A program made the translations under genes and the position numbers. The notes under the pieces are model-generated. The model saw nothing but the letters and a program-made list of their open reading frames with translations. It had not been told where the DNA came from and made no database searches. From IMG/VR virus record IMGVR_UViG_3300032006_002787, positions 1 to 54,564 of that record: 54,564 nucleotides of DNA, one strand, 5' to 3'. How positions within the stretch are numbered: position 1 is the first letter of the stretch; each line of letters starts with the position of its first letter. This stretch comes from a virus. Positions 5,646-54,010 of this stretch are shown in pieces.

Positions 5646-5654
5646 TATATACAC
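5646..5654 (-). promoter_or_regulatory. GTG-TATATA element (second promoter class)
   Basis: GTG (5652-5654) followed by TATATA (5646-5651) and ATAAC before the ATG at 5640. It shares the GTG-TA core found upstream of eight other genes here and has no recognisable -35 box. Confidence 0.5.
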
Positions 5655-5661
5655 TACATCT

Positions 5662-6066
5662 TTATATAGCGAATTTTTTAAATAAACCAGAGTCTAAATC
5701 ATCCGAATCATGAATCTCTATGAGTTTGATATTATTTAATTCACAAAATTCTTTTTTTTGCTTGTCTCTGCGTAGCTGATGAAGGAAGTTTATTTTTTGA
5801 TTGTTGTGAAAATGAGGGACATATTTTGTGTGCTGTGCTCCTTGTACCTCTATTGCTATTTTTTTTGTAGCATTGTAAAAATCTATACTCATTTTTGTTC
5901 CTGCTACTGGGAGCTCCTCGAAAACTACTTGGTTTTCCCATCGCGCTTTTAAAAGCGTTTTTACCTTAAATTGCCTCTTGCTCCTACTGGGCGACTCCCA
6001 ATCTATTATATACTTTCTGATCTTGCGGACCCTTTTCGTTCCGCCGCTAATGGTTTTAAAGAGCAT
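5662..6066 (-). CDS. PD-(D/E)XK-like endonuclease
   Basis: A 134-residue basic protein. Asp62 in MSIDFY and Glu73-x-Gln75 in IAIEVQGAQH form the D...ExQ pattern seen in Vsr-like and other restriction-endonuclease-fold enzymes, followed by a conserved-looking His/Arg/Asp helix (QLRRDKQKKEF) and a final beta strand (IKLIEIHD). It overlaps the recombinase gene by 11 bases, so it is probably coupled to it. The context suggests a repair or junction-processing nuclease. A Holliday-junction resolvase is possible but not shown. Confidence 0.7.
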   Translation of the reverse strand: MLFKTISGGTKRVRKIRKYIIDWESPSRSKRQFKVKTLLKARWENQVVFEELPVAGTKMSIDFYNATKKIAIEVQGAQHTKYVPHFHNNQKINFLHQLRRDKQKKEFCELNNIKLIEIHDSDDLDSGLFKKFAI

Positions 6067-7141
6067 TGCTTATTTTCTGAAAATCCTTATACATAAATTC
6101 TGTAATTTCAGGATTTGACTCTAGGTATTCGAGCAGCTTTGGTTCGCCTTGTATTTTTTCTGGAACCTTTAATCCTGCGTCTTTCAATTCTTTGATAAGA
6201 GAGTCCGCAAAACTTATCCAAGCCCCCTTTTTTTGAATCATGTCAAAAAGGTACATCATATCTATAATTTCTCTTTCCTTCCATATTCCGCCATTTTTCC
6301 CGTATTTAATCGGGTATCTAACCTGAGATCCAGTTTTTTCATTTACGGATTTCCTGAATCGTATTTTACAATAGTGGCCTATGGGGTCTCCTTTATCTGC
6401 GAGCTTTGAGGCGGTGGGGTTTTTAAACATAATGTCATTATTATATCTTTCTTCGAACTCTAGTATGAAATTTGCGTAATGTTTTATTGCGTTTCCTCCA
6501 GCTTGCTTTACCTTGGGGCCTCCTCGTGCCGCATATGGATTGGTTGCAACCTCTACTCTTATCTGGGATGTAAGTATCATCATGTGTCCCATTTTGGTAA
6601 TTGGAAGAACCATCTTCTTTAAAAATACAGAAGTTATAAGCGCTCCTCCCGCCACTTGTTCTGATTCATCAAATGGCTTATCTATGTCTCCTATTCGACA
6701 TAATGCGTCAACGCTATCTATAAGAAATAAAAATCTTTTTTCTTCAGGATTGTCGAGGACTAGCTGTCTAATTAATTCAAAAACTTTTTCAAAGATATTG
6801 CAATCAAAAATAAATAATTTTTCTGGATCCCTATCTATTCCAAGCTTGTCTAGCATTTCATTTTGCAGTCTTCCTTCACTCTTGACTATCACGACCATGC
6901 CATCGTCTTTAAAATGTTCTTGAAAGTTTTTCGCAACAGTTAATGCGCAACTTGTTTTACCTCCCTCGTTTATTCCTGTAAGTCTATGTGCTCCCGCGCA
7001 AAATCCCCCGTCTAGAGCAATATCCAAATTGAGGCTCCCAGAGGAAATTTTATAGTCTGCATCAGCATAGCCATTGTAGTGATATTTTTTGTTTTCCTTA
7101 TTTGAGAGGAATTCGTTAATTTGATCTATTGCTCGGGTCAT
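6056..7141 (-). CDS. RecA/UvsX-like recombinase
   Basis: A 361-residue RecA-family ATPase. The Walker A motif is GINEGGKTS at residues 56-64 (the usual form is GPESSGKT), Walker B is FLFLIDS at about 136-142, and the DNA-binding loop region (SQIRVEV, RGGPKVKQAGGNA) follows. The N-terminal stretch IDQINEF and the ISSGSLNLD turn fit RecA. Expected role: strand exchange for recombination-dependent replication and repair. The start codon shares one base with the stop of the upstream gene (TAATG), indicating coupling to the promoter at 7471-7499. With SSB and a possible annealing protein elsewhere in the window, it completes a recombination set. Confidence 0.88.
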   Translation of the reverse strand: MTRAIDQINEFLSNKENKKYHYNGYADADYKISSGSLNLDIALDGGFCAGAHRLTGINEGGKTSCALTVAKNFQEHFKDDGMVVIVKSEGRLQNEMLDKLGIDRDPEKLFIFDCNIFEKVFELIRQLVLDNPEEKRFLFLIDSVDALCRIGDIDKPFDESEQVAGGALITSVFLKKMVLPITKMGHMMILTSQIRVEVATNPYAARGGPKVKQAGGNAIKHYANFILEFEERYNNDIMFKNPTASKLADKGDPIGHYCKIRFRKSVNEKTGSQVRYPIKYGKNGGIWKEREIIDMMYLFDMIQKKGAWISFADSLIKELKDAGLKVPEKIQGEPKLLEYLESNPEITEFMYKDFQKISNAL

Positions 7142-7464: not shown

Positions 7465-7470
7465 CGTAGT

Positions 7471-7499
7471 ATTATAGCAAATTAATCTTTCAGTGTCAA
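7471..7499 (-). promoter_or_regulatory. Consensus sigma70 promoter for the recombinase operon
   Basis: TTGACA (7494-7499), 17-bp spacer, TATAAT (7471-7476), then 6 bases to the GTG start at 7464. Both hexamers match the sigma70 consensus exactly. The -35 box lies inside the end of the upstream coding sequence. The predicted transcript would begin at or next to the start codon. Confidence 0.88.
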
Positions 7500-9263: not shown

Positions 9264-9267
9264 TGAT

Positions 9268-10427: not shown

Positions 10428-10436
10428 TTATTACAC
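10428..10436 (-). promoter_or_regulatory. GTG-TAATAA element (second promoter class)
   Basis: GTG (10434-10436) and TAATAA (10428-10433) end 5 bases before the ATG at 10422. The element overlaps the stop codon of the J-domain gene. AGGTG could look like a ribosome site, but it ends 11 bases before the ATG. Confidence 0.5.
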
Positions 10437-11011: not shown

Positions 11012-11020
11012 TAAATACAC
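11012..11020 (-). promoter_or_regulatory. GTG-TATTTA element (second promoter class)
   Basis: GTG (11018-11020) and TATTTA (11012-11017) end 5 bases before the ATG at 11006. It begins directly downstream of the terminator T-run, which supports it as a fresh transcription start. Confidence 0.55.
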
Positions 11021-11051
11021 AAAAAAAAGGGCGGGGAAAGCCCCCGCCCTT
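11019..11051 (-). terminator. Rho-independent terminator after the repeat fibre gene
   Basis: A GC-rich 10-bp perfect stem (11027-11036 pairing with 11042-11051, AAGGGCGGGG type) with a 5-base loop is followed, on the minus strand, by eight consecutive T residues. It lies 24 bases beyond the stop of the fibre gene at 11075. It is the clearest terminator in the window. Confidence 0.93.
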
Positions 11052-11074: not shown

Positions 11075-12037
11075 TTACAATGAAGCAATATAGTCGAGGC
11101 TATAATCTGCGCTAGGCGTTTCATCCGAGAAGATGAAGGTAGCCCCCGAGGTGGAGACTCCACTTAGCTGTACAGCAAGAATAGGATCGCCTGCAGAATT
11201 CCTAAGCATTCCCATGATTTTGGGAGCAGAGGAAAACGTTTGAGAGAACGTAATTGCCTTGGAGGCAAGGTTGTTCCCTATTGCGACAGAACCTACTTCG
11301 GATTCACCGTCAAGATCGCTTACGGCAGTACTTAGCGTAGCGATGTTGGTCGAATTAGCCTTCATGCCTGTAGAAACGGTGTTCTTCGCGGCACTCAATG
11401 TGCTGATCGCCTGAGAGCGAGCTGTAGACTCACTGACTACTGCGGAAGAAACGGTGTTCTTCGAGGCACTCAATGTGCTAACGGCATTCGAACGAGCTGT
11501 AGACTCACTGACTACTGCGGAAGAAACGGTGTTCTTTGCGGCACTCAATGTGCTGATCGCCTGGGAACGAGCTGTAGACTCACTGATTACTGCGGAAGAA
11601 ACGGTGTTCTTCGCGGCACTCAATGTGCTGATCGCCTGGGAACGAGCTGTAGACTCACTGACTACTGCGGAAGAAACGGTGTTCTTCGCGGCACTCAATG
11701 TGCTAACGGCATTCGAACGAGCTGTAGACTCACTGACTACTGCGGAAGAAACGGTGTTCTTCGCGGCACTCAATGTGCTGATCGCCTGAGAGCGAGCTGT
11801 AGACTCACTGACTACTGCGGAAGAAACGGTGTTCTTCGCGGCACTCAATGTGCTAACGGCATTCGAACGAGCTGTAGACTCAGTGGTTACTGCGGAAGAA
11901 ACGGTGTTAAGATCATCGTCGAGGGCGAGATCTTTTGCACCGCTACCAGAGTCAACCGTGAGCTTGCTCGAGACTGCGTTATTAGCTAGAATGGCTCCGC
12001 CATTTAGCTTGACTTTCTCTGTGTTGAAGATAGCCAT
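11075..12037 (-). CDS. Repeat-rich fibre protein (25-residue repeats)
   Basis: A 320-residue protein. Residues 44-218 are seven tandem copies of a 25-residue Ser/Ala/Thr-rich unit (NTVSSAVVSEST...LSAAK), two versions of which alternate (SNAVS and SQAIS). The C-terminal 100 residues form a non-repetitive beta-rich domain. This resembles the shaft and tip of a trimeric phage fibre. It stands alone as a transcription unit: it has an upstream TTG-TACATA element and a strong terminator downstream. High expression as a virion protein is likely. The exact place in the virion is unknown. Confidence 0.8.
   Translation of the reverse strand: MAIFNTEKVKLNGGAILANNAVSSKLTVDSGSGAKDLALDDDLNTVSSAVTTESTARSNAVSTLSAAKNTVSSAVVSESTARSQAISTLSAAKNTVSSAVVSESTARSNAVSTLSAAKNTVSSAVVSESTARSQAISTLSAAKNTVSSAVISESTARSQAISTLSAAKNTVSSAVVSESTARSNAVSTLSASKNTVSSAVVSESTARSQAISTLSAAKNTVSTGMKANSTNIATLSTAVSDLDGESEVGSVAIGNNLASKAITFSQTFSSAPKIMGMLRNSAGDPILAVQLSGVSTSGATFIFSDETPSADYSLDYIASL
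11384..11908 (-). repeat. Seven 75-bp in-frame tandem repeats
   Basis: Seven units of exactly 75 bases encode the 25-residue fibre repeats at residues 44-218. They are nearly identical at DNA level, differing at a few sites that separate two alternating subtypes. Such arrays can expand or contract by recombination. Confidence 0.95.
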
Positions 12038-12042: not shown

Positions 12043-12051
12043 TATGTACAA
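12043..12051 (-). promoter_or_regulatory. TTG-TACATA element before the repeat fibre gene
   Basis: TACATA (12043-12048) preceded by TTG ends 5 bases before the ATG at 12037. It is a variant of the GTG-TA element with one mismatch. A short inverted repeat (ACAAAG / CTTTGT) lies just upstream. Confidence 0.4.
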
Positions 12052-12088: not shown

Positions 12089-13468
12089 TTATAAAATATT
12101 TTCAGCATACATTTTCATATACAAAAATTTACTGCTTTCGGTGTAACTAGAGAAGTTCCGTAAGAAAGGATTCTTTTCGCTTTGAGGGCAATGGTCGAGG
12201 CAAAGTCTCTCGTCATCAATAATTTTAAAATTAAAGCCAGACGGGTCCGAGGCTTTTAATATTTCTTTAAAATCTGATTCCCCATTTGCTTTTTCTAATA
12301 AATTTTTGGTATACTGATGACACTTAATCATGCACGCTTCACTTTTTTCGCTTAATATTAAATACTTAGTAGTGTTTTTGAAAAAATCTTCAATCATATT
12401 TTCTGGATTACAAATAAGCATGGAGTCTGTAATAAAGAGTATGTATTTATGTTCATTAATATGACTTGCTATGGCTCGATACTTTTCCGTTCCTTGTTCT
12501 CTATATATATAAGCAGTATAATTATGTTTGTTTGCGTATCTTAAAACGTTATTCTCTGCCTCGATCGAATGACGCCCTTCGTTGGAGATGGTTATCACTG
12601 CAACATCCTGGCCAGTGTTGTAGGAAATGTTCCCTTCTTTTGTTGAGGCTTCTTGTACTGAGGTGGGAACGTATCTACTTGCAAATTCTGTTACATCTTG
12701 CTTCTTTTGGGTTTTTTGTGCAATTGGACTTTCGAAAGAATAGTTAAATAACTCTAGGTCTTTTTTGTATACAGACTCAACAATAGCTCTGGATTCTTCG
12801 TCGTAATACTCGCTGTAATGCTTTTTTCTTTTTTGATTTCTTATTTTGGGGAGAGTTGCATTTTTAATGTTAATTTTTTTACAGATATAGTTGAAATCTT
12901 TTTCAATATTCTCAAATTTTCCTACATATGAAACAAAAGGTTTTCCGTTATCGGAATCCGCCTCTTCGGGATCATAGAGGAATTTATATTGCGGGAGGAA
13001 GTGGACGTTATATTTTGTCACTGGGTCACAAAGATCATCTTTAGTTAGATAGCTTTTACAGAATTCTGTGAAGCTTGAAAAATTAAAGTCTGGATCTGTA
13101 TTTCCCTCGTTACCCTCAAACTCTTTCCTTCTTGAAGCGTAAGTATAGGCTGAAACTACCCTATCAAAAGGGTTTCTTACGAAGGCGCAGGAAAAATAGG
13201 ATGGGTCATCGATGTAGGGCTGAACCAGGAATTTATTAATTGGGTAAAACGGATGGGCATAATCAACTGAATTTTCAAAATATAAAGAATTCTTTTTTTC
13301 GTTAAATATAGAGACTCGAATCTTTTTAAAGCCATCCGAGGATTCTACGCCTCTTATCATGGCTTGTTGAGAGCCGTAATTCCCCTCTCCCCAGACCATA
13401 TTCATGCTAGAGCCTGCTGTTTTGGGAATATGGATAAATATAAATTTATGTTCTTTTGAGATAATCAT
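12089..13468 (-). CDS. Sulfotransferase fused to a glycosyltransferase-like domain
   Basis: A 459-residue, two-domain protein. Residues 1-240 are a Sulfotransfer_2-type domain: the PAPS 5'-phosphosulfate loop IHIPKTAGSS at 12-21 and the 3'-phosphate motif FVRNPFDRVVSAY at 96-108. Residues about 280-440 have a GT-A-like pattern (VITISNEGRHS, NKHNYTAYIYRE, KYILFITDSML) like that of galactosyltransferase/mannosyltransferase families that act on glycans. Expected activity: transfer of sulfate from PAPS to a sugar, perhaps after the same protein adds the sugar. It directly abuts the single-domain sulfotransferase gene (TAAATG). The sulfotransferase half is firm; the second domain is a moderate call. 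Confidence 0.82.
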   Translation of the reverse strand: MIISKEHKFIFIHIPKTAGSSMNMVWGEGNYGSQQAMIRGVESSDGFKKIRVSIFNEKKNSLYFENSVDYAHPFYPINKFLVQPYIDDPSYFSCAFVRNPFDRVVSAYTYASRRKEFEGNEGNTDPDFNFSSFTEFCKSYLTKDDLCDPVTKYNVHFLPQYKFLYDPEEADSDNGKPFVSYVGKFENIEKDFNYICKKINIKNATLPKIRNQKRKKHYSEYYDEESRAIVESVYKKDLELFNYSFESPIAQKTQKKQDVTEFASRYVPTSVQEASTKEGNISYNTGQDVAVITISNEGRHSIEAENNVLRYANKHNYTAYIYREQGTEKYRAIASHINEHKYILFITDSMLICNPENMIEDFFKNTTKYLILSEKSEACMIKCHQYTKNLLEKANGESDFKEILKASDPSGFNFKIIDDERLCLDHCPQSEKNPFLRNFSSYTESSKFLYMKMYAENIL

Positions 13469-16349: not shown

Positions 16350-16358
16350 AATGTACAC
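16350..16358 (-). promoter_or_regulatory. GTG-TACATT element for the leftward glycan operon
   Basis: GTG (16356-16358) and TACATT (16350-16355) end 9 bases before the ATG at 16340. It is divergent from a matching element at 16446-16454. Confidence 0.5.
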
Positions 16359-16409
16359 TGTTATTTAAAAGGAAAGAATAAAACTCTGCCTATTAAAAAG
16401 TCTCCAAAG

Positions 16410-16435
16410 TAACTTTTAACTTTTCATGTAACTTT
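16410..16435 (+). repeat. Three copies of TAACTTT in the divergent promoter region
   Basis: TAACTTT occurs at 16410, 16417 and 16429, upstream of the portal gene element where a -35 box would be expected. It could bind an activator of late transcription, but the spacing is irregular (7 and 12 bases) and the region is AT-rich. Confidence 0.35.
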
Positions 16436-16445
16436 AATAAAGTTT

Positions 16446-16454
16446 GTGTATTAT
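16446..16454 (+). promoter_or_regulatory. GTG-TATTAT element for the structural operon
   Basis: GTG (16446-16448) and TATTAT (16449-16454) end 7 bases before the ATG at 16462. No TTGACA-like box is found at 16-18 bases. It heads the 14-kb rightward structural operon. Confidence 0.6.
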
Positions 16455-37454: not shown

Positions 37455-37483
37455 TTGACAATTTTATTTTAGAATGATAGTAT
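37455..37483 (+). promoter_or_regulatory. Sigma70-type promoter for the glycan operon
   Basis: TTGACA (37455-37460), 17-bp spacer, TAGTAT (37478-37483), then 6 bases to the ATG at 37490. A leaderless mRNA is predicted. Confidence 0.83.
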
Positions 37484-43355: not shown

Positions 43356-43361
43356 AATAAA

Positions 43362-44165
43362 ATGACAAACGCCCAGAAAATAATTTTCCCCTGCTTTATT
43401 GGGGAGTTTGGGCATGAGCTATTTAATTGGCAGGCGCACCTTCGAAAGTTATCCAGATCTTATTCACACGTAATCACTTATTGTAGGGATAGAAATACTG
43501 AATTGTATAAAGATTTTTCCCACGAAATAATAACAATAGACAGTGAATCACTTCCTGCCGACCTAAACTCCGAGAGTAGCATGGTGGTGCTACCGAAGCA
43601 ATTCAGTAATAGCGAGAACAATTCCCTCTTTATATGTCCACCAACCCTACCCCCAACACGGAAAGAGTGGGAGGAGTGTGAACCCCACCCCGAATATGTA
43701 CCCCTTGGTAATAAAGAAACAAAAAAAACCTATGATGCGGTATTGCACTTACGAAACAGGGTTCACAGGCAACACGGCAATGATAGTTTAGACTGGAGCT
43801 TGAAACTTACAGAGAGGTTATCAAGAGAATACAATATATGCATCATAGGTGCGACTGGTGGAGCGGTGAACCCGAACGACCACGGCCTTAATGTACCAGC
43901 CTTTTTTGATAAAAACTTGCGCGATCTAGCCCTTATTTGCCGAAGCTCTAAAATTTGCGTTGGAGTCTCAAGCGGCCCGATGCACTTTTCAGCCCTATGC
44001 GAAACCCCCGTATGCGTATGGACAAACGAGCGCGGCATGAAACTCCACAATAGATACAAAACAACATGGAACCCGTTTAAAGTAGGGGTTGATTATTTCC
44101 CAAATAGGCCATCTATAGAACAAATACTTGAATCTGTCAGCTTAAAACAAAATAATACAACATGA
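43362..44165 (+). CDS. GT9-like glycosyltransferase
   Basis: A 267-residue protein. CFIGEFGHELFNWQAHLRKL replaces the usual GxGD opening, and VGVSSGPMHFSALCETPVCV near residues 205-225 is the GT9-type donor loop. It begins 6 bases after the previous stop, one of the few non-overlapping junctions in the cluster. Confidence 0.7.
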   Translation: MTNAQKIIFPCFIGEFGHELFNWQAHLRKLSRSYSHVITYCRDRNTELYKDFSHEIITIDSESLPADLNSESSMVVLPKQFSNSENNSLFICPPTLPPTRKEWEECEPHPEYVPLGNKETKKTYDAVLHLRNRVHRQHGNDSLDWSLKLTERLSREYNICIIGATGGAVNPNDHGLNVPAFFDKNLRDLALICRSSKICVGVSSGPMHFSALCETPVCVWTNERGMKLHNRYKTTWNPFKVGVDYFPNRPSIEQILESVSLKQNNTT

Positions 44166-44752
44166 TCCCCAAAGATAAAGTTATTTCGTCCTGGAAAAAC
44201 AGGGCAATCAAACAAGGGGAGAGGACAGTTGGTTACCTCAATAGAAGCATGGACGTTCAGGATAATGAGCACGAAATTCGTTCTAGCTTTATTTCAAGTC
44301 ATATAGATAAAACAAAAAAAGTCCTAGATTACGGTTGTGGAACAGGAAGGCAGACCTGTCTATTCAATAAAGGGAATTATATAGGAGCGGACATTACAGC
44401 GGAGTTGCTTGAAATTGCAAAAAAGCTCTATCCTGAGCATAACTTCCTTCAATTAAGCGAGGTGGGAGAAGTTCCAGATGTAGAATTCGATATGTTTTTC
44501 ACATCGACGGTTTTACAACACAACTCGGATGAAACAGTAAACCTAATATTCTCCAATCTTAAAAAAATAAAGCCAGACAACCTAGAGTTTGTATTATACG
44601 AAAACTCCAGGACCCAATGCGGGCACGTAAAGGGAAGAAGCTCAAGCGAATACGTTAATTTAATTTCCAACTTCTTTAACATTAAGAGTCATTCAGGGAG
44701 TACTCACGTCATTCACGGACAGGAGCATGGGGTTAGTATTATCAAAACATGA
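44162..44752 (+). CDS. SAM-dependent methyltransferase
   Basis: A 196-residue class I methyltransferase. VLDYGCGTGRQT at about 54-65 is the SAM-binding motif I, with YIGADITAELLE as motif II and MFFTSTVLQHN as the motif after strand 4. The position in the glycan cluster suggests sugar or glycan methylation, for example as a chain-capping step. Confidence 0.87.
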   Translation: MIPKDKVISSWKNRAIKQGERTVGYLNRSMDVQDNEHEIRSSFISSHIDKTKKVLDYGCGTGRQTCLFNKGNYIGADITAELLEIAKKLYPEHNFLQLSEVGEVPDVEFDMFFTSTVLQHNSDETVNLIFSNLKKIKPDNLEFVLYENSRTQCGHVKGRSSSEYVNLISNFFNIKSHSGSTHVIHGQEHGVSIIKT

Positions 44753-46125
44753 ACAAAGGAGTCCAGTTAATAATTTTCGACCTCGATGGAGTCATCATAG
44801 ACTCCAGGGAACTTCATTATGAATGCTTAAACGCTGCCCTATCAACCATTAACCCTAAATATATAATAAAAAGAGAAGAACACCTTTCTGTTTTTGACGG
44901 CCTACCAACTACAAAAAAATTAAGACTACTCACAAAAAGAAAAGGTCTACCAGAAAACCTTTACGATAAAATCTGGAACCTAAAACAGAAGGCTACGCGA
45001 GAAAGACTTCTTGATCTAGAAAGGGACTACAAATTAATAGAGATAATGATGTCACTTAAGGATCGTGGGATTAAAATTGCAGTCGCATCAAACTCTGTAA
45101 GAGAAAGCGTTAAAATGACCCTCCTAGGAAAGGGTTTAATGAAATATGTAGATTGCTTTTATTCAAACGAAGATGTAATGAGAGGGAAACCTAATCCCGA
45201 AATGTATTATAAGTGCATGATAAAATTAGGTATTCCAGCAAAAAATACTATAATAATAGAGGACTCCCATACAGGTAGGATGGCAGCAGAATCCTCTGGA
45301 GGTAACCTACTTGCAGTTAAAAATTGTGAGGATGTAACTTTAGAAAATATAAATTTTAAAATAGAAAAAATGACTAAAACAGAAAAAGTACCTTGGCAAG
45401 GTGAAGATATGAACGTGTTGATACCCATGGCGGGAGCGGGAACCAGATTCGAGCAAGCGGGTTATACGTTCCCAAAACCTTTAATAGATGTAAGAGGCAA
45501 GCCTATGATTCAATGGGTGGTAGAAAGCCTAAACATGAACGCGAATTACATTTTTATCGTTCAAGACGAGCATTACAAAAGGTATGCCCTACAGCATACC
45601 CTCAGCCTTATAGCCCCCAATTGTAAAATTGTCACAGTGAGCGAATTAACAGAAGGTGCGGCATGCACTACTCTACTAGCTAAAGAATTCATCAATAACG
45701 ATCGGCCGCTACTACTTGCAAATTCAGATCAATTTGTCGACTGGGAAAGTAATGAGTTCATGTACTCAATGATTGCTGATGAAATTGACGGAGGCATATT
45801 AACATTTAAATCAACCCACCCCAAATGGAGCTATGCAAAGCTAAACGAAGACGGCTTCGTGACAGAGGTTGCAGAAAAAATTCCTATCAGTGAACACGCT
45901 ACGGTAGGAATCTACTACTGGAAACACGGGTCAGATTACGTTAAGTATACAGAGCAAATGATAGAAAAAAATATCAGAGTAAACAATGAATTCTACGTTT
46001 GCCCAGTATACAACGAAGCCATACAAGACGATAAAAAAATAAAAATCTCCCACATTGAGTTTGAAAACATGTGGGGACTGGGAACTCCAGAGGATTTAAA
46101 ATATTTCATAGACAACTATAAATGA
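44749..46125 (+). CDS. Fused HAD phosphatase and sugar nucleotidyltransferase
   Basis: A 458-residue bifunctional protein. Residues 1-205 are a HAD hydrolase of the beta-phosphoglucomutase type (FDLDGVIIDS with Asp11 and Asp13, Ser115 region VASNS, Lys148 in GKPNP, IIIEDSHTG with Glu171-Asp172). Residues 221-458 are a GlmU/RmlA-type nucleotidyltransferase (LIPMAGAGTRF, FPKPLIDVRGKPM, NSDQFVDW). It should dephosphorylate or isomerise a sugar phosphate and activate a sugar-1-phosphate with an NTP. It is directly followed by the GDP-mannose dehydratase, so nucleotide-sugar supply is its likely job. Confidence 0.88.
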   Translation: MNKGVQLIIFDLDGVIIDSRELHYECLNAALSTINPKYIIKREEHLSVFDGLPTTKKLRLLTKRKGLPENLYDKIWNLKQKATRERLLDLERDYKLIEIMMSLKDRGIKIAVASNSVRESVKMTLLGKGLMKYVDCFYSNEDVMRGKPNPEMYYKCMIKLGIPAKNTIIIEDSHTGRMAAESSGGNLLAVKNCEDVTLENINFKIEKMTKTEKVPWQGEDMNVLIPMAGAGTRFEQAGYTFPKPLIDVRGKPMIQWVVESLNMNANYIFIVQDEHYKRYALQHTLSLIAPNCKIVTVSELTEGAACTTLLAKEFINNDRPLLLANSDQFVDWESNEFMYSMIADEIDGGILTFKSTHPKWSYAKLNEDGFVTEVAEKIPISEHATVGIYYWKHGSDYVKYTEQMIEKNIRVNNEFYVCPVYNEAIQDDKKIKISHIEFENMWGLGTPEDLKYFIDNYK

Positions 46126-47150
46126 GCACAATCATATTAACAGGAGTCACAGGTCAAGATGGAAGCCACATGGCAGACTATCTCCTAAAAAATACGGATC
46201 ATAAAATTCATGGAGGAGTGAGAAGATTAAGCGTTCCGAATCATAAAAATATTAAACATATAAAATCTAACAAGTTCAACTTGATCAGTTTAGATTTAAC
46301 AGATAGCCATAGCATAGAGAAAAGTATAATAGACCTATCTCCAGATTATTTTATCAATTTTGCAGCGCAATCTTTTGTGGGAGGGAGCTGGGATTACCCA
46401 AAGCAAACCTTCGAAACAAACGCGACAGCTGTGCTAGATATCTTAGAATCAATAAGAAAGCATGCTCCGTCCTGTAGATTCTATAACGCAGGAACAAGTG
46501 AAGAATTTGGGGACGTGGAATACTCCCCTCAAGACGAGCTACACCCACTAAAGCCTCGCAGTCCATATGGAGCAAGTAAAGCTGCGGCAAGACATTTAGT
46601 AAAAGTTTATAGGGAATCTTACAATTTGTATGCAGTGCAGGGCTGGTTATTTAATCACGAAGGCACCAGAAGGGGCGAGGAGTTCGTGACTAGAAAAATT
46701 ACAAAGTCTGTTGCAAAAATAAAGAAGGCAATAGAAGAAAACCTAGAATGGGAACCCCTTGAATTAGGAAACTTGGACGCTCATAGAGATTGGAGCGACG
46801 CAGAAGACTTCGTGGATGGAATATGGAAAATGCTTAATCAAGAGAAGCCAAAGGATTATATCCTTTCAAGCGGAAAAGCTCATACTATTAGGGATTTTGT
46901 AGAAACTGCGTTTCGTTTTGTAGGCATAGATGGGTATTGGGTATCTAGCGGTATAAAAGAAAAGTATAAAACTGCGTCAATCGATCAAGAACTAGTAAAA
47001 ATAAACCCTAAATTTTATAGACCTGCTGAAGTGGAATACCTTTTAGGGAATTCAAATGCGGCGAAGGAAGGAATCGGATGGTTACCCAAGGTTTCGTTCA
47101 AAAAACTAGTAGAAAAAATGGTGATTAATGATCAAAAGCAACTAGAATGA
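46122..47150 (+). CDS. gmd: GDP-mannose 4,6-dehydratase
   Basis: A 342-residue short-chain dehydrogenase/reductase enzyme. ILTGVTGQDGSHMADYL at residues 5-21 is the NAD(P)-binding start typical of Gmd; AGTSEEFG (Thr125, Glu127) and the Tyr149/Lys153 pair in YGASKAA form the active site. Family reaction: GDP-mannose to GDP-4-keto-6-deoxymannose, the precursor of fucose, rhamnose and perosamine types. It is slightly shorter than the E. coli enzyme but complete. No GDP-fucose synthase follows, so the next step must come from the host, an unrecognised gene, or elsewhere in the genome. Confidence 0.92.
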   Translation: MSTIILTGVTGQDGSHMADYLLKNTDHKIHGGVRRLSVPNHKNIKHIKSNKFNLISLDLTDSHSIEKSIIDLSPDYFINFAAQSFVGGSWDYPKQTFETNATAVLDILESIRKHAPSCRFYNAGTSEEFGDVEYSPQDELHPLKPRSPYGASKAAARHLVKVYRESYNLYAVQGWLFNHEGTRRGEEFVTRKITKSVAKIKKAIEENLEWEPLELGNLDAHRDWSDAEDFVDGIWKMLNQEKPKDYILSSGKAHTIRDFVETAFRFVGIDGYWVSSGIKEKYKTASIDQELVKINPKFYRPAEVEYLLGNSNAAKEGIGWLPKVSFKKLVEKMVINDQKQLE

Positions 47151-47572
47151 GAAGTATAGCTCATAGAGGAAACACTGAAGGAAGAAATAAAAAGCTAGAA
47201 AACCACCCCAATTATATTTCTAACGCAATCCACGAAGGTTACGATGCAGAGGTTGACGTTTGGTTGTCTGACGGTCTCGATTTAGGACACGATAAACCCC
47301 AGTACTCAATTGAATTAGATTACCTATTGAGTTTTAGCGAATTCCTATGGATTCATTGTAAAAACCTAGAGGCCTTACATTTCCTTAATGAATTCCCAGA
47401 GTTAAATGTATTCTGGCATCAAAAGGATGACTTCACACTTACTTCTAAAAACTTTATATGGACCTATCCAGGAAAGCAGGTGACGCAAAATTCAATTTTA
47501 GTAATAGGAGACGCTTGTAAATACGAAGGACCCTCGTGTTATGGACTTTGTGCGGATAATTTTAAAGAATGA
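47147..47572 (+). CDS. Short GDPD/PI-PLC-like protein
   Basis: A 141-residue protein keeping the catalytic pattern of glycerophosphodiester phosphodiesterases: AHRGN (residues 5-9), AEVDVW (Glu35, Asp37) and LGHD (about 46-49). It is far shorter than a full 230-250-residue TIM barrel, so either it is a minimal form or the family is divergent. Overlaps of 4 bases on both sides show it is expressed with the glycan genes. Hydrolysis of a phosphodiester in a glycan or lipid carrier is possible. Confidence 0.65.
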   Translation: MRSIAHRGNTEGRNKKLENHPNYISNAIHEGYDAEVDVWLSDGLDLGHDKPQYSIELDYLLSFSEFLWIHCKNLEALHFLNEFPELNVFWHQKDDFTLTSKNFIWTYPGKQVTQNSILVIGDACKYEGPSCYGLCADNFKE

Positions 47573-48396
47573 AACCATCAATTTCAGACCCCAAGTGGCG
47601 CCTTAGATTTTTTAAAGATCTGCAAAAAAGATTTTTTGAGTTAGAGAGAAAAATCTCTATTGTAATTCAAGGTCCGCTCCATAAGAGGTCGATCAGAACT
47701 ATTCCACATTATCTAAAATATGGAGATGTTGTAGTTTCCTGCTGGGACAAAGATGACTTAAGCTTACTGAGGGAGTATAGAGATAAAGTAACACTTGTTG
47801 TAAATAAACGGGAAGAGGTTCCACGCAGCAGACTCAGATCATTTGGAAGGCATGGGCCAAACCCATGGATTTTACAAAATTATTCTTCATATCACGGAGT
47901 AAGTGCGGCAGATGGATTCTTTGCGATTAAACTAAGGTCGGATGAGTCGTATCCAGACCTTAATGCAATAATTCATAAATTATATTTCTGGAATGAGGAT
48001 ACAAAATTTTCCACAAAATTCATAACCTCAGATATTTATTTCAGATTCGATAGGGAAGAACCATTTCACCCATCAGATCATATAATCGCAGGCAAAAGAG
48101 ATCAATTAAAAAGAGGTTTCGAGAGAGCTATATTTAATGCAAGGGCAGAAATTCAAAAAAAATACGCTTTCCCAGAAAGATTGATTTGCGAATCCTTTTT
48201 AGAGACGATCTGGGATCCTGAAGCCAAATGCTTTATTCGTGCAGAGAAAAGCAGGTCAAAGGAATTAATGAAAAAGTATTTTGATATAATACCTATTCGT
48301 CTATTAAAAGATTTTACATGGTCTTCAAGCTATAGGAAGTATGAGGGATTAAAACAGCCAGAATTGGGGTGGTGCCAGGATATAAGTGCAATATAA
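47569..48396 (+). CDS. WavE-like lipopolysaccharide synthesis protein
   Basis: A 275-residue protein. ISIVIQGPLHKRSIRTIPHY, YGDVVVSCWDKDDL and FFAIKLRSDESYPDL match the pattern of the WavE family of lipopolysaccharide core synthesis glycosyltransferase-like proteins. It is last in the chain of overlapping genes that begins at 37490. No terminator is visible behind it, but a new promoter-like element starts 46 bases downstream. Confidence 0.75.
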   Translation: MKPSISDPKWRLRFFKDLQKRFFELERKISIVIQGPLHKRSIRTIPHYLKYGDVVVSCWDKDDLSLLREYRDKVTLVVNKREEVPRSRLRSFGRHGPNPWILQNYSSYHGVSAADGFFAIKLRSDESYPDLNAIIHKLYFWNEDTKFSTKFITSDIYFRFDREEPFHPSDHIIAGKRDQLKRGFERAIFNARAEIQKKYAFPERLICESFLETIWDPEAKCFIRAEKSRSKELMKKYFDIIPIRLLKDFTWSSSYRKYEGLKQPELGWCQDISAI

Positions 48397-48441
48397 TTTT
48401 CGTTGAAATTCTTGTTTTTAAGACTACTATTCAAATAGAGG

Positions 48442-48450
48442 GTGTACATT
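48442..48450 (+). promoter_or_regulatory. GTG-TACATT element before the protease gene
   Basis: GTG (48442-48444) and TACATT (48445-48450) end 8 bases before the ATG at 48459. The TACATT hexamer is identical to that at 16350-16355. Confidence 0.5.
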
Positions 48451-48458
48451 TATACATT

Positions 48459-49397
48459 ATGAAATATCTTACCACTACTATATTAAGCATACTATTACTA
48501 ACAACCTACTTGCCTGGAGAAGGTAAGAGCAGAAAAGAGGTGGCAGACCATTTGCAAAACATCTCTGTAACAATTAAATCTGAAGGTCGTTGGTCTAAAT
48601 CTGAGGGCTCTGGCGTTTTAGTCAATAGAGAGATAGAGGGAGAGAAAATAACTTTTGTGTGGACCGCTGCGCATGTCATAGATAACCTAAGGACAATTAG
48701 AGAGGTTGTAGACAGCGAAGGGAACACAAAAAAGCTTGTAGAATTTAGAGATGCCAGAATAGTAAAAGAGCTTGTAGAATCTGGTAGACGCGTAGGAGAA
48801 ATAAAAATGGACGCTTCAGTAATTAAATATAGTGATGCGGAAAATGGCCACGACCTAGCCCTACTAATGGTAAGAGCAAGGGATTATGGAAAAGATAGCG
48901 CCAAATTCTTAGAAAAAACAAAAGATGAAAAAATTGTTCCAATCGGCACTCGCCTCTATCACGTAGGAAGTCTCTTGGGACAAGTAGGCTCCAACAGCAT
49001 GACTACAGGAATAGTTTCTCAAGTAGGGAGAGTTCTTGGAGATATTGCTCGGGGCGCAGAATTTGATCAAACAACAGTCACAGCATTCCCAGGAAGCAGC
49101 GGCGGTGGAGTTTTTCTTGAAAATGGGGAATATGTAGGGATGGTCGTTCGTGGCGCAGGAGAAGGATTTAATTTCATAGTCCCAATTCGACGCATGGAAG
49201 ATTGGGCGAAAGAAAATAATATACTTTGGGCAATTGACACAAAAGTAAAAATGCCAACATTCAATGAAATCAAAAAGATACCCGTTGAAGGAAATTCTGA
49301 CGAAAAGAAAACTAGAGAACACGAAGGCTCAGAAGAAAACTTTTCCTCTCCAGCGGACCAGTTCCCATTCTTAATTAAAAAGACAAGTAAGAAATAA
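48459..49397 (+). CDS. Exported trypsin-like serine protease
   Basis: A 312-residue secreted protease. MKYLTTTILSILLLTTYLPG is a signal peptide. The catalytic triad is complete: His72 in TAAHV, Asp132 in GHDLALL and Ser214 in GSSGG, as in DegP/trypsin-like enzymes; a C-terminal 50-residue Lys/Glu-rich tail replaces any PDZ domain. I start at 48459, not at the longer frame, because the signal peptide begins there and the promoter element fits. It probably acts in the periplasm or envelope, on host or phage surface proteins. Confidence 0.88.
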   Translation: MKYLTTTILSILLLTTYLPGEGKSRKEVADHLQNISVTIKSEGRWSKSEGSGVLVNREIEGEKITFVWTAAHVIDNLRTIREVVDSEGNTKKLVEFRDARIVKELVESGRRVGEIKMDASVIKYSDAENGHDLALLMVRARDYGKDSAKFLEKTKDEKIVPIGTRLYHVGSLLGQVGSNSMTTGIVSQVGRVLGDIARGAEFDQTTVTAFPGSSGGGVFLENGEYVGMVVRGAGEGFNFIVPIRRMEDWAKENNILWAIDTKVKMPTFNEIKKIPVEGNSDEKKTREHEGSEENFSSPADQFPFLIKKTSKK

Positions 49398-49401
49398 GTA
49401 G

Positions 49402-49429
49402 TTGACTTAAGGAGGAAGTGACGTATAAT
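49402..49429 (+). promoter_or_regulatory. Sigma70-type promoter for the last operon
   Basis: TTGACT (49402-49407), 16-bp spacer, TATAAT (49424-49429), then 6 bases to the ATG at 49436. An AGGAGG sits inside the spacer, too far (about 19 bases) from the ATG to be its ribosome site. Confidence 0.8.
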
Positions 49430-49435
49430 ATATAA

Positions 49436-50005
49436 ATGTCACTTTCGCTTTATAAACCTAATAGTAAAAATACTGGTTGCGCATTCAATTTTAAGATTGG
49501 CACTAGTAAAAAACACGAACCGACACTATACGTCAGCTCTATCCAGCAGCACAGCTGGGACCCCAAGACAAATACTGGAAACTTCTCTGGAAACAAGGAT
49601 GATACTGATAAAAACATCCATGTAAAATTTAATGAATGGGAAGTTGGAAGCATTATAAGCGCGTTCGATAATAGAACGGAGTATAGTACATTTCATGCGT
49701 TTGAGGAAAATAAAACAACCATCAAATTTACCCCATGGGATAAACAGGTTAAGGTCAAAAAGCAGGATCCTAAAACCAAGAAGTATGTGGAGGAGACGGT
49801 AATTTCTCCAGCATTCGGAATGGTATTTACTCGAAATGGAAACCAAAGCTTTAGAATCCCAATTGAGGCGGGAGAAGTAGAGACGATAAAACAATTCCTC
49901 AAAATGTTTTTGTCAAATTTAATGAATGACAGATATAAAAAGGAACAAGATCGAGTAAGTCAGGCGAAAGCTAAAGAGCCAGCAGGCGACCTACCCCCGT
50001 TTTAA
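49436..50005 (+). CDS. Possible ssDNA-binding protein with SSB-like C-terminal tip
   Basis: A 189-residue protein. From memory, MSLSLYKPNSKNTG and the later NKDDTDKNIHVKFNEWEVG and EYSTFHAFEENKTTIKFTPW blocks resemble a phage family suspected to be PC4/SSB-like. The body is beta-rich and basic. The C-terminal sequence AGDLPPF resembles the acidic-PF tip of SSB proteins. It heads an operon with a consensus promoter, consistent with early expression. DNA binding is inferred. Confidence 0.55.
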   Translation: MSLSLYKPNSKNTGCAFNFKIGTSKKHEPTLYVSSIQQHSWDPKTNTGNFSGNKDDTDKNIHVKFNEWEVGSIISAFDNRTEYSTFHAFEENKTTIKFTPWDKQVKVKKQDPKTKKYVEETVISPAFGMVFTRNGNQSFRIPIEAGEVETIKQFLKMFLSNLMNDRYKKEQDRVSQAKAKEPAGDLPPF

Positions 50006-50011
50006 GCAAAA

Positions 50012-52018
50012 ATGCCAATCCTAGGCGCTGCAATACATGACCTTTCAAAATTGCGAGCAGAGACTTGGTCTGATAACAAAGGGTCTAGTACTATGAAAAA
50101 AAAGAAAATTTTATATCATAGCAATTACTGCAAGGCGTTTACGGGCTTTGGAAAAAATGCAAAAAATATATTATCCTACCTATCTAGAACAGGTAAGTAT
50201 GAATTAGTAGAGTTTTGCAATGGGGTTAAGTGGGGAAATAAAGATCTAGAAATGCTCCCTTGGACATGCGAAGGATCAATACCCGAAAACGATAGGTTGA
50301 TACAAGAAATACAGAAAGACGAGACAAGAGCGAGGCAAATGGGTTATGGGGCAAATTGCATTGATGATATAATTGAAAGAGAAAAGCCAGATATATATTT
50401 AGGAGTAGAGGACATTTGGGCGTTCTCAAAATACTGGGATAAAAAATGGTGGAATAAACTAAATTGCATGGTTTGGACAACCCTGGACAGTTTGCCAATT
50501 TTACCAGACGCAGTAAAGGCAGCAGAAAAAATAAAGCACTATTATACCTGGTCAACATTTGCAACAAGAGAGTTAAATAAACTAGGTCACAAGCACGTAG
50601 AGTGTTTACATGGCTCCGTAGACACAAAGACCTTCTTTAGATATCCTGATGAGGCAAGAAAAGACATAAGAAAAGGGAATAACATTTCGGATGATGATTT
50701 CATAATAGGTTTTGTATTCAGAAATCAATTAAGGAAAAGTGCGCCCAATTTACTAGATGGGTTTAAGGAATTTTTACAAAGAAATCCAAAAGCAAAAGGA
50801 AAATTATTGTTGCATACTTCATGGTCAGAGGGTTGGGACATTCCAAGGCTACTACATGAAAAAGGGATAGATAAGTCCTTAGTCCTAACAACATATTTCT
50901 GTTCTAATTGTAATGCCTATGAAATAAAACCATTCGAGGGCGAGGATAAGAATAGCGGAGAGCGCCAGCCTTGTAAATTTTGCGGAGAGAAAAATAGTAT
51001 GAATACAACCAGTGTTAAATCTGGAGTTAACGAAAGGCAGCTGAATGAGATATATAACGCTATGGATGTTTACTGTCACCCATTTACCAGTGGCGGGCAA
51101 GAGCTTCCAATTCAAGAAGCGAAACTAACGGAGCTTATTACTTTAGTTACAAACTATAGTTGCGGAGAGGATGGCTGCAATCAAGAAAGTGGAGGAATGC
51201 CTTTAGAGTGGGCGGAGTACAGGGAACCAGGAACTCAATTCATAAAAGCCAGCACACACCCATCCAGCATTGCAAGACAATTAACAAAAGTCCACAAAAT
51301 GCCAAAAGATAAACGAAGAAGGATGGGACAAAAAGCAAGAAAATATGTCGTAGATAATTACAGTATAGAAGTAATAGGCAAGCGCCTTGAAAACATTTTT
51401 GATTCAATGCCATTCTCAGATTGGGATTTTAATTTTGACTCCCTAAAACCAGACCCAACCTACAATCCACCAGAAATAGAGAGTGACGAAGAATGGCTAA
51501 TTGACATCTATCACAACATCTTAAAAATGAATGTAGATAAAGAGGAATCTGGACACAAACATTGGACAAAAGAATTAAAAAAAGGAAAAAGCAGGAATGA
51601 CATCCTTCGGTATTTTAAAAAGGTTGCAGAGAAGGATCATGAGGCGGCAAATAAATTAAAAATCGAAGACTTTCTAGATAAAGAAGATGAAGGCAAGCGT
51701 GTCCTGTGTGTTATGCCTCAATCAATTGGGGATGTATTCCTGACAACCTCCTTAATTTCAAATATTAAAAAAACTTATCCAGAGTATAACATATATTATG
51801 CGACCAAACAAGAATACTTTGAAATACTAGACGGGAACCCGCACATCCATAAGGTTATTCCATACTCAAAAGAAATGGAAAACCTTGCAATACTAGAAGG
51901 GCAAGGAAAGCATAAGGGTTATTTTGAAATAGCATTCCTTCCATTTATTGGAACCCAGAGAATTTTAAATTATATGCACAACGGAAAAGATAAAATACAA
52001 TTCGATATATGCACTTAA
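50012..52018 (+). CDS. Multidomain glycosyltransferase: GT4, DUF4214-like, N-half of GT9
   Basis: A 668-residue protein. Residues 30-465 form a GT-B/GT4 enzyme (ILYHSNYCKAFTGFG, GSVDTKTFF, HPFTSGGQELPIQEAKL with Glu364) carrying a zinc-ribbon-like insert at 297-324 (CSNC ... CKFC). Residues 491-541 match the DUF4214 pattern (WLIDIYHNILKMNVD, GHKHWTKELKKGKS). Residues 562-668 are the first half of a GT9 domain (VLCVMPQSIGDVFLTTSLIS) and stop abruptly. The second half begins in another frame in the next gene. The start could also be the ATG at 50093. Confidence 0.8.
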   Translation: MPILGAAIHDLSKLRAETWSDNKGSSTMKKKKILYHSNYCKAFTGFGKNAKNILSYLSRTGKYELVEFCNGVKWGNKDLEMLPWTCEGSIPENDRLIQEIQKDETRARQMGYGANCIDDIIEREKPDIYLGVEDIWAFSKYWDKKWWNKLNCMVWTTLDSLPILPDAVKAAEKIKHYYTWSTFATRELNKLGHKHVECLHGSVDTKTFFRYPDEARKDIRKGNNISDDDFIIGFVFRNQLRKSAPNLLDGFKEFLQRNPKAKGKLLLHTSWSEGWDIPRLLHEKGIDKSLVLTTYFCSNCNAYEIKPFEGEDKNSGERQPCKFCGEKNSMNTTSVKSGVNERQLNEIYNAMDVYCHPFTSGGQELPIQEAKLTELITLVTNYSCGEDGCNQESGGMPLEWAEYREPGTQFIKASTHPSSIARQLTKVHKMPKDKRRRMGQKARKYVVDNYSIEVIGKRLENIFDSMPFSDWDFNFDSLKPDPTYNPPEIESDEEWLIDIYHNILKMNVDKEESGHKHWTKELKKGKSRNDILRYFKKVAEKDHEAANKLKIEDFLDKEDEGKRVLCVMPQSIGDVFLTTSLISNIKKTYPEYNIYYATKQEYFEILDGNPHIHKVIPYSKEMENLAILEGQGKHKGYFEIAFLPFIGTQRILNYMHNGKDKIQFDICT

Positions 52019-53226
52019 TAGAACAATATGCACTTAACTGTGGAGTTAAAATAGATCAGCCTCAAGTTGAAGAGAGCTTTTACCCAGTACCTTTTGAGAA
52101 ATATATAACACTTCACGCGAGTAGCGGAATGGCGGCAAAAAACTACGATCATTACAATGATGTAATGAAAATGATTTATCCCTATTTAAAAAAAGAGGGG
52201 ATCGAAGTAATACAAATAGGAGGGGAATCAGATGCGCCCATCTCTTATGCCCATAGTTATCGAGGGACGACAACCCTTAAGCAAACTTTTTATTTAATTA
52301 AAAATTCACTATTGCACTTTGGGAACGATTCATTCAGCACTCATGTTGCATCAGGATATAATAAGCCGATAGTTTCCCTATATAGCGTTTTATACAAGGA
52401 GTGTTGCGGGCCCTACTTTGGAGACAAAGACATACAAGTCATGCTGGAGCCAGACATGACTAATAAAAAATGCTCCTTTTCCGATAAAGAGAATCCTAAG
52501 AGAGTGAATGAGATTCTCCCAGAGGAGGTAGCAAGAAGCGTTTTGGATCAATTAAAAATAGAACATAACTTACATAGAATAAAAACAGTTCACATCGGGA
52601 GCTTTTTTCACACGCCGATCATAGAGGTTATTCCAAATTTTATTATGGATCCAGGCTTCATGTCTGGGTCGGTATTAAATATAAGAATGGACCTTGCTTT
52701 TGAAGAAAGAAATTTAGCACATTGGGCCCAACAGAAAAAAATTAACATTTTCACAGACAAGGAAATAGAAACAACTTATTTAGTAGCCATAAAAGATCAA
52801 ATAATGGGCATTACCTACGAAGTAGGGGTTGACTCCAGCCCAGAATATATATCCCAATTAAAAGCCCTAGGCTTCAATGTAGTACTTCACACAAAAGACA
52901 GGGATAACCTAAAAAGGATAAGATTAGACTTCTTCGATTGGCAGGTTCAGTATTTTGAACCTAAAACAAAAAAAATGCTTGACAATTACTCCGAATTATG
53001 TGATAATAGCCACTATGAAAGTTCAAAAATACTATTATCGAATGGACAAAAATATCCCTCCAAGGCTGCGTGGCTCAGAGACCTTCCTGGAGTGGATTCC
53101 GACCACCCGATTCTAGATTGTTCAGAATTTTGGGAAGAGCAAGATTACTTAAAAATATATAACGGAGAAATAGAAGATGGCACGGAAGAAAACACAAAAT
53201 ACCAGCGAGAGCACAGTAGAGAATAG
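52009..53226 (+). CDS. C-half of GT9 glycosyltransferase plus unknown domain
   Basis: A 405-residue protein overlapping the previous gene by 10 bases in a different frame. Residues 1-185 continue the GT9 fold cut off upstream: MHLIEQYALNCGVK matches the linker helix, KYITLHASSG opens the C-domain, and LLHFGNDSFSTHVASGYNKP is the donor loop. Residues 190-405 are a separate domain I do not recognise. The protein may assemble with, or be translated as an extension of, the upstream product. Confidence 0.75.
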   Translation: MHLIEQYALNCGVKIDQPQVEESFYPVPFEKYITLHASSGMAAKNYDHYNDVMKMIYPYLKKEGIEVIQIGGESDAPISYAHSYRGTTTLKQTFYLIKNSLLHFGNDSFSTHVASGYNKPIVSLYSVLYKECCGPYFGDKDIQVMLEPDMTNKKCSFSDKENPKRVNEILPEEVARSVLDQLKIEHNLHRIKTVHIGSFFHTPIIEVIPNFIMDPGFMSGSVLNIRMDLAFEERNLAHWAQQKKINIFTDKEIETTYLVAIKDQIMGITYEVGVDSSPEYISQLKALGFNVVLHTKDRDNLKRIRLDFFDWQVQYFEPKTKKMLDNYSELCDNSHYESSKILLSNGQKYPSKAAWLRDLPGVDSDHPILDCSEFWEEQDYLKIYNGEIEDGTEENTKYQREHSRE

Positions 53227-53986
53227 CGTAACAATTTCAGATGCAGGGGTGGATAACTCGTTTGGCCCTTCTTTATTCCAAAGAGACGAGAATGGTTTGC
53301 TAAAGAATACTCAGTACGAATTTAATGAAGACGGCTCCGTAAACTGGAGGGCGATGATTAAAGAGGAGCACCTCTTCCCCAATAAAGGCTGGTTTGAATC
53401 CAGAAAGAGGGAGGTTCCCTCTTCAGCGGAAGGCCTGGCAGATCATCAACTCTTGATTAAACTAAGTGGAATTAAGGAGCTTGCAAAACTTAGGGGATTT
53501 AATCACATTAGTTACCGAACGGAAAAATGCGAACAGAATCATGTTGCTGTAAATTGCACCATAAGTTTTATACCAAATTACGAAACAGGAGGAGCTTGCG
53601 TTTCATATGAAGATATGGCCAATGCAACGCTAGAAAACACAAGCAGTTTTGCAACTAAATTCCTAGAAACCATTGCCTGCAACAGAGCTTTTGTTAGAGC
53701 TGTTAGAAATTTTTTAAATGTTCACATTGTTGGCGATGATGAAATCGACAAGTCCAACAATCCAATGATTACAGCATCAGCACCATCCTCACTTACCCCC
53801 TCCAGCATCCTAGAGAGTCAGGTTAGGGATAAGTTAAATTGCGGAAACTTCGATGCCTTTAAGCAGGTGCTAAGGAATTGGTGGCAAGAAAAGAAATACA
53901 ACAATCAAGAGGTAGGCAAATGGGCCTCATTTGACGATGTCCCAGCAAAGGAAGCTAGGGTCTTATTGAAACTCATAAATGATTGA
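53177..53986 (+). CDS. Putative recombination/annealing protein
   Basis: A 269-residue protein. After a disordered start, residues 75-200 contain a beta-beta-alpha core ending in FATKFLETIACNRAFVRAVR, which resembles the AETRAxxRALR helix of ERF/Rad52-like ssDNA-annealing and related phage proteins. The C-terminal 70 residues are a small helical domain. A GGAGA ribosome site lies 8 bases before the ATG, which is inside the previous gene (50-base overlap). Assignment is tentative. Confidence 0.5.
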   Translation: MARKKTQNTSESTVENSVTISDAGVDNSFGPSLFQRDENGLLKNTQYEFNEDGSVNWRAMIKEEHLFPNKGWFESRKREVPSSAEGLADHQLLIKLSGIKELAKLRGFNHISYRTEKCEQNHVAVNCTISFIPNYETGGACVSYEDMANATLENTSSFATKFLETIACNRAFVRAVRNFLNVHIVGDDEIDKSNNPMITASAPSSLTPSSILESQVRDKLNCGNFDAFKQVLRNWWQEKKYNNQEVGKWASFDDVPAKEARVLLKLIND

Positions 53987-54010
53987 TTTAAAGGCATATT
54001 GGTGTAATAT
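53983..54010 (+). promoter_or_regulatory. Promoter-like site before the edge gene
   Basis: TTGATT (53983-53988), 16 bases, TAATAT (54005-54010), 8 bases, ATG at 54019. The -10 box is also preceded by GTG, so the site combines features of both promoter classes. Confidence 0.5.

Follow-up and report, generated by a model that had tools for sequence, protein, structure and literature searches.

A 54,564-base stretch of viral DNA (IMG/VR record IMGVR_UViG_3300032006_002787; hereafter the window) carries a short element, GTGTA, just upstream of the start codons of several genes. Here we describe this element in the window, which is identical over all 54,564 bases to bases 52,847-107,410 of a 107,410-base viral contig (the 107-kb record), and in the relatives of this phage. 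Our comparisons suggest that GTGTA and the five or so A/T bases behind it very probably form the sole recognition element of a phage-specific promoter class, which would be read by a phage sigma factor and would start RNA about 14 bases further on. From the presence and position of the element, its link to gene gaps and terminators, and the sigma genes of the same phages, we infer its promoter nature, the start point and the sigma assignment. In the proposed mechanism, RNA polymerase carrying a phage-encoded sigma factor would recognise GTGTA without a -35 box and initiate about 14 bases downstream of the first G, usually at the A of the ATG or a few bases upstream of it, and the messages would be leaderless or nearly so. 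The candidate sigma factor (type A) would itself be made from a host-type sigma70 promoter.

The element in the window and in relatives

The original prediction had placed GTGTA cores upstream of the starts at 5640, 10422, 11006, 16340, 16462, 33996, 48459 and 54019, and a TTGTA variant upstream of 12037. All match the sequence letter for letter, and a direct sequence check found the predicted hexamers at all nine starts. In gene order from 5640 to 54019, the hexamer of the exact elements ends 5, 5, 5, 9, 7, 9, 8 and 8 bases before the ATG, and that of the variant at 12037 ends 5 bases before it; the hyphen in GTG-TA marks no gap in the element. Scored with a position weight matrix (PWM) trained on relatives, for which a score of at least 4 is reached by 0.25% of 2398 coding control segments, six window genes score 9.5-11.8, the 48459 gene 4.8 and the 12037 gene 1.6. 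The elements and the features beside them are as follows.

5646-5654, minus strand: GTG-TATATA element, 5 nt before ATG 5640 (92-aa gene); PWM 9.8
10428-10436, minus strand: GTG-TAATAA element before ATG 10422 (384 aa); PWM 9.5
11012-11020, minus strand: GTG-TATTTA element before ATG 11006 (191 aa), just downstream of an intrinsic terminator; PWM 11.2
11021-11049, minus strand: intrinsic terminator, GC hairpin and T8 run, abutting the 11006 element
12043-12051, minus strand: TTG-TACATA variant before ATG 12037 (320-aa repetitive protein); weak match, PWM 1.6
16350-16358, minus strand: GTG-TACATT element before ATG 16340 (DUF2827 protein), divergent from the putative portal promoter; PWM 9.9
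16406-16443, plus strand: AACTTT/AAAGT repeat array upstream of the putative portal promoter; similar arrays occur in relatives
16446-16454, plus strand: GTG-TATTAT element before ATG 16462; PWM 11.8
16462-18525, plus strand: portal-like gene, heading a run of plus-strand genes
34006-34014, minus strand: GTG-TAAACA element before ATG 33996 (827 aa); PWM 11.2
48442-48450, plus strand: GTG-TACATT element before ATG 48459 (trypsin-like protein); PWM 4.8
54002-54010, plus strand: GTG-TAATAT element before ATG 54019

Genes were called by a greedy open reading frame script that prefers the first ATG, and individual starts may be wrong. The G of the element lies at -20 to -14 in 7 of the 53 called window genes, against 0.068 expected (Poisson P ~1e-12), and GTGTA has the highest count among all 1024 5-mers in that interval; the eighth GTGTA gene, 54019, continues past the end of the window and is outside the 53. 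On both strands together the window holds 20 occurrences of GTGTA. By z, a second test with a different background put GTGTA in third place for the window taken by itself (7 against 0.4 expected) and in first place for the 107-kb record (15 against 0.7). In that record the element precedes 14 of 115 genes with its G at -20 to -14, and 14 of the 47 GTGTA occurrences on both strands lie there.

The claim that the element marks most transcription-unit heads lacking TTGACA proved too strong: GTGTA stands at -40 to -12 of 14 of the 47 heads in the 107-kb record, one of which also fits the sigma70 pattern, while 8 heads have the sigma70 pattern only and 25 have neither. At least three of these 25 resemble sigma70 sites that the strict pattern missed.

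Relatives were collected by IMG/VR scans, which gave the best 80 of at least 600 portal loci (50-58% identity), 26 RecA loci and the best 80 of 239 sigma loci. The 107-kb record itself had supplied one RecA and one sigma locus; these were excluded, leaving 25 and 79, and removal of near-copies reduced the sets from 80 to 69 (portal), 25 to 21 (RecA) and 79 to 61 (sigma). GTGTA is the top 5-mer at -20 to -10 in each set, with 162 occurrences against 4.2 expected in the portal set, 47 against 1.8 in the RecA set and 90 against 4.8 in the sigma set, and at least one motif gene is present in 69 of 69 portal, 21 of 21 RecA and 45 of 61 sigma loci. Upstream of the portal gene itself, all 80 relatives have GTGTA within 45 nt, and 75 of them have it within the last 22 nt (near-copies included; 69 loci after their removal). 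A second, more distant clade, found by way of a portal with about 38% identity, likewise has GTGTA as its top 5-mer (90 against 0.9 expected), with the motif in 42 of 47 loci (80 before reduction). GTGTA is therefore shared across a large group of uncultivated phages. Applied to the first 40 kb of phiEco32, the k-mer test did not recover that phage's known motif, so the method needs many sites.

The signal at the 245 non-portal sites consists of GTGTA, about five A/T bases downstream and A/T bases upstream, and nothing more; no column further upstream than -6 exceeds 0.12 bits, and these sites thus show no -35 box. The 55 portal sites carry in addition 3.24 ACTTT repeats per 80 bases, against 0.20, with repeat starts most often 6-8, 15-17, 27-29 and 35-37 bases before GTGTA and common distances of about 7, 11, 22 and 29. 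This AACTTT/AAAGTT array marks the first-clade portal promoters (L001-L080) and is rare at other motif sites; none was seen at the few second-clade portal genes displayed. The window array (16406-16443) is a shorter version, placed between two divergent GTGTA elements. The array may be an operator array, or else an origin.

Genes behind the element in the 107-kb record include the portal gene, an ATP-dependent protease gene (G at -12), genes for DUF1501 and trypsin-like proteins, others without a family match, and the 92-aa gene at ATG 5640, which directly precedes the DnaB, primase and exonuclease genes (DnaB has its own sigma70-like site). Since the protease, DUF1501 and pre-DnaB genes also carry the element, the putative GTGTA promoter class is not confined to structural genes. 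The portal-like gene at 16462-18525 has no PHROG or Pfam match; its name comes through a distant relative, which at 20-22% identity matches annotated portal proteins of the Bacillus phages Slash and G.

Spacing, gene gaps and the predicted RNA start

The distance between the element and the start codon has an edge at -14. In the portal set the G lies at -14 in 61 cases, -15 in 34, -16 in 24, -17 in 18 and -18 in 14, with none at -13; the corresponding counts in nine contigs are 44, 25, 9, 17 and 7, with none at -13 and one at -12. A G at -14 puts the A of the ATG at offset 14, and in the 150 first-clade loci the same offset stands out at sites further from the ATG: among the 118 sites at -20 to -16, offset 14 is a purine in 70% (P 4e-8 against an assumed 45%) and offset 13 a pyrimidine in 66%. 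This pyrimidine-purine step is most distinct at -16, -17 and -18; the -15 class shows it weakly, with 54% purine. Because of the -14 edge and the step at offsets 13 and 14, RNA most likely starts about 14 bases after the first G, at the ATG or a few bases before it.

Sigma70-type promoters in the same loci have a similar edge. Of their -10 boxes, 67 of 104 begin at -20 to -10, mostly at -12 to -15, with 4 matches in the coding control. Sigma70 initiates about 12 bases past the first T of the -10 box, and the sigma70-headed genes of these loci therefore look leaderless too, to judge by box position.

The element is distributed unevenly with respect to the upstream gene. In the first-clade loci, of 1056 starts that leave no gap to the upstream gene, overlapping or touching it, 3 have the element, as do 8 of 301 with a gap of 1-10 bases, against 127 of 305 with 11-30 bases, 90 of 347 with 31-100 bases, 12 of 157 with more than 100 bases and 47 of 276 with an opposite-strand neighbour; the contrast with overlapping starts is owed in part to the coding needs of the upstream gene. 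GTGTA is thus not equally frequent inside operons, a check that the original prediction had itself proposed. Intrinsic terminators (score at least 10) have their T-run abutting the element at 21 of 293 starts, compared with 15 of 2217 starts without the element (P 1e-11); at the lowest threshold, 8, the abutting cases number 22 and 33. A terminator abutting the element implies that the downstream gene needs an RNA start between the T-run and the ATG, and the 11006 gene of the window is such a case.

Several observations weigh against this reading. The counts in relatives take in homologous promoters and are therefore not independent, and 16 of the 61 sigma loci have no motif gene, among them stretches of records that bear the motif elsewhere (L158 of G002 and L216 of G008). 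Spacing in the second clade is looser, with the G at -20 in 31 cases, -17 in 15, -18 in 13, -29 in 13, -14 in 12, -22 in 10, -13 in 1 and -12 in 3. At sites -20 to -16, offset 10 is as pyrimidine-rich as offset 13, and at sites -45 to -21 (n=84) the purine peak falls at offset 15 (75%), with just 49% at offset 14. On balance, the comparative data favour a second phage promoter class with starts at or next to the ATG, as originally proposed; its activity and start point are what we infer from them.

Candidate sigma factors and competing readings

The type-A sigma factor of the window probably reads GTGTA, although the case is circumstantial. Its gene and the sigma70-type promoters of the window are as follows.

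35845-36456, minus strand: type-A phage sigma factor, 203 aa, candidate reader of GTGTA
37313-37341, minus strand: sigma70-type promoter TTGACA-17-TATTAT, 7 nt before ATG 37305, heading the gene run that contains sigma A; it overlaps a one-mismatch TTGTA (PWM 2.8)
37455-37483, plus strand: sigma70-type promoter TTGACA-17-TAGTAT, 6 nt before ATG 37490
7471-7499, minus strand: sigma70-type promoter TTGACA-17-TATAAT, 6 nt before GTG 7464

A sigma2 region in type A is supported by phrog_351 (E 4e-5) and by PDB SigA region 2 (E 0.0013); the match to PF04542 (14.8 bits) falls under its cut-off of 24. A sigma4 domain is a possibility: TIGR02937 matches residues 23-191 at 25.1 bits, under its cut-off of 42.9, the AlphaFold model (predicted local distance difference test score 74.7) has a C-terminal helical bundle, and Foldseek returned sigma-factor matches with probability 1.00 and a low template-modelling score over the whole chain. 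The segment SIQGCINIH is nearly invariant among type-A relatives (13 rows). All 7 of the searched virus records that reach 120 kb contain type A, as do 15 of the 29 searched when size is disregarded; 8 of them have the portal as well. Records bearing type A often hold further sigma genes; the 15 records without a clear type A, one of them a metagenome-assembled genome (MAG), all have another gene with sigma region 2.

Two other sigma types accompany it. Type B is a two-domain protein resembling extracytoplasmic function (ECF) sigma factors, with 169-202 aa in 11 rows and 24-31% identity to the first row. Type C has about 225-285 aa and four conserved cysteines, which may bind zinc, and is encoded near the terminase or portal gene. 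All three types occur in the 194-kb record and in the 163-kb record; in the 107-kb record A and C are present and B was not found.

From each sigma gene, the gene run was walked upstream to the first promoter pattern. The 60 type-A runs reach a sigma70 pattern first in 35 cases and GTGTA in none, with an opposite gene in 21, an edge in 3 and a gap in 1. The 51 type-C runs reach GTGTA in 26 (8 also with sigma70), sigma70 only in 11, an edge in 6, an opposite gene in 4 and a gap in 4. For type B, the 24 rows (duplicates included) gave sigma70 in 15 cases and GTGTA in 2. These patterns fit a cascade in many members, in which host sigma70 would lead to A (perhaps B), and A to the GTGTA genes, including C.

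On the other side of the balance for type A, PF04545 (Sigma70_r4) has no match in G000 or G001, and a sigma4-like domain in type A, if real, would have no visible -35 partner. No clear type-A gene was found in the five second-clade records searched, which are fragments and one MAG. The type-A walk ends without a recognised promoter in 21 of 60 runs (those meeting an opposite gene), and the type-C gene run of this phage itself has no GTGTA. Up to three sigma types occur per record (G022, G011 and others), and since the largest records hold all three, presence cannot separate them.

A fuller programme with up to three sigma factors of the phage's own is a tentative reading, to which we give somewhat less than an even chance. 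In it, host sigma70 would make A; A would read GTGTA fused to start codons; GTGTA runs would make C in many members; most recognised promoters would give leaderless messages; and the portal operon would carry an additional, phased ACTTT array for its regulation. It is weakened by the looser second-clade spacing and by the lack of GTGTA before type C in this phage. If it holds, promoter and translation start would form one unit of about 20 bases.

The strongest competitor to type A accepts the phage promoter and assigns it to another reader: the type-C sigma near the terminase and portal genes, the ECF-like type-B sigma or a host alternative sigma. This is possible, if less likely than reading by A. 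Type C lies near structural genes in both element-bearing clades, type B is a two-domain ECF-type sigma, and the type-C run of this phage is not GTGTA-headed. GTGTA, however, heads 26 of the 51 type-C runs and none of the 60 type-A runs, which would place C downstream or make it autoregulated, and type B is strongly variable, whereas the element is constant.

That the element is instead a variant host sigma70 site, a -10 box without a -35, appears improbable. Its TA and A/T-rich stretch near -10 would fit, but TTGAC/TATAAT-like promoters coexist in the same genomes, most with their T at -12/-13, whereas GTGTA is the dominant core of the element, has its T at -11 in the modal class and lacks a -35 at the 245 sites. 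The order of an extended -10 is TGn, which the element does not match.

We consider it slightly less probable again that the element acts in the RNA as a signal for translation initiation, placed at a fixed spacing from the AUG. The fixed spacing would suit such a signal, as would the scarcity of Shine–Dalgarno-like sequence, found at 5 of 109 motif genes against 153 of 979 others (background 10.6%), but this comparison is confounded, since the element itself occupies much of the stretch concerned, and that too counts against reading the scarcity as a mark of leaderless messages; among the few motif cases with long leaders the count is 9 of 35, against the same 153 of 979. Against such a signal, the element is nearly absent from overlapping and close operon genes, whose translation needs signals too, although upstream coding constrains the sequence there, and it is enriched right after terminators. 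It also stands 17 nt upstream of the only tRNA found in the 150 loci, a single case, and the pyrimidine-purine step at the -16, -17 and -18 sites tracks the element and not the ATG. Chance or base composition is a negligible explanation, for although TA is common in A/T-rich leaders, all 5-mers were ranked and the reversed 5-mer ATGTG has no comparable positional peak in the nine contigs. The sigma70 variant, the translation signal and chance were each tested and set aside.

Phage lineage and known systems

A tblastn search with the sigma and portal sequences found no relatives among 50,697 phage isolate records, and RecA, Pol III, terminase and a distant portal gave only remote matches. Nine portal-bearing contigs were found in MAGs, of mixed taxa. 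The type-B sigma scores 114 bits against the Rhodopirellula/Verrucomicrobium family TIGR02989, under the cut-off of 124.55; ECF sigma factors near this family lie at 12240-12788 of locus L140 and 16713-17252 of L121, and a DUF1501 protein at 46236-47519 of G001. With DUF1501 taken, as we assume, as a pointer to such hosts, the two together hint at a host in the Planctomycetota or Verrucomicrobiota.

A fatty-acid beta-oxidation cassette on the minus strand (window 1-1263 and G001 49055-54103) places side by side a thiolase, named by reading its sequence, a FadB-like protein (enoyl-CoA hydratase/3-hydroxyacyl-CoA dehydrogenase) and an acyl-CoA dehydrogenase. Read from the sequence, 11075-12037 and 30781-31491 of the window encode proteins built of tandem amino-acid repeats that may be fibre-like, and a long gene run at 37490-54000 resembles glycosyltransferases, epimerases and other sugar-modifying enzymes.

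As a sequence rule, GTGTA helps in locating transcription units and the correct start codons of this group, for which IMG/VR has at least 600 portal-encoding stretches, and it makes leaderless expression through a phage-encoded sigma factor directly testable. Judged by titles and abstract openings, we found no paper describing the element. What is new is GTGTA itself, the way it is fused to start codons throughout a lineage, and the pairing of the element with more than one phage sigma gene.

Among known promoters, the sigma70 arrangement of TTGACA about 17 bp upstream of the -10 is absent from the 245 non-portal GTGTA sites. T4 late promoters have the motif TATAAATA, read with gp55. They resemble the GTGTA sites as -10-only promoters for a phage sigma factor; the sequence here differs, and hhalign detected no homology between type A and a single gp55 sequence (probability 0.4).

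The late promoters of phage 7-11, GTAAtg-16-aCTA (PMC8948821), likewise depend on a phage sigma factor, gp47, but are bipartite, whereas the present element is a single box. Among bacterial genes, a TA box some 10-12 bp ahead of the start codon has been taken to indicate leaderless ones (PMC3160421); the T of the TA here lies at -11 in the modal class and further off in the second clade. The signal of those cellular genes is a Pribnow-like TANNNT, in contrast to the phage-specific GTGTA core. Phage transcripts are often leaderless, so that this trait is already known (PMC5312081). In the same source, AR9 late promoters (AACA-6N-TA/G) resemble GTGTA in that a single short element, specific to the phage, stands at a fixed distance upstream of the start site, while a phage multisubunit RNA polymerase and untranslated regions of 26-491 nt are features of AR9.

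Nearest in kind are the middle/late promoters of phiEco32, tAATGTAtA, which have no -35, start 6-8 bp downstream and are served by the phage sigma factor gp36 on the host polymerase (PMC8948821). An hhalign comparison with a single gp36 sequence, of limited sensitivity, detected no homology to type A (probability 0.1; type C 0.1, type B 6.7). Both promoter classes have a single box with a TGTA core and no -35; the core here is GTGTA in A/T surroundings and abuts start codons. For GTGTA, the -14 edge and the pyrimidine-purine step suggest a start at offset 14.

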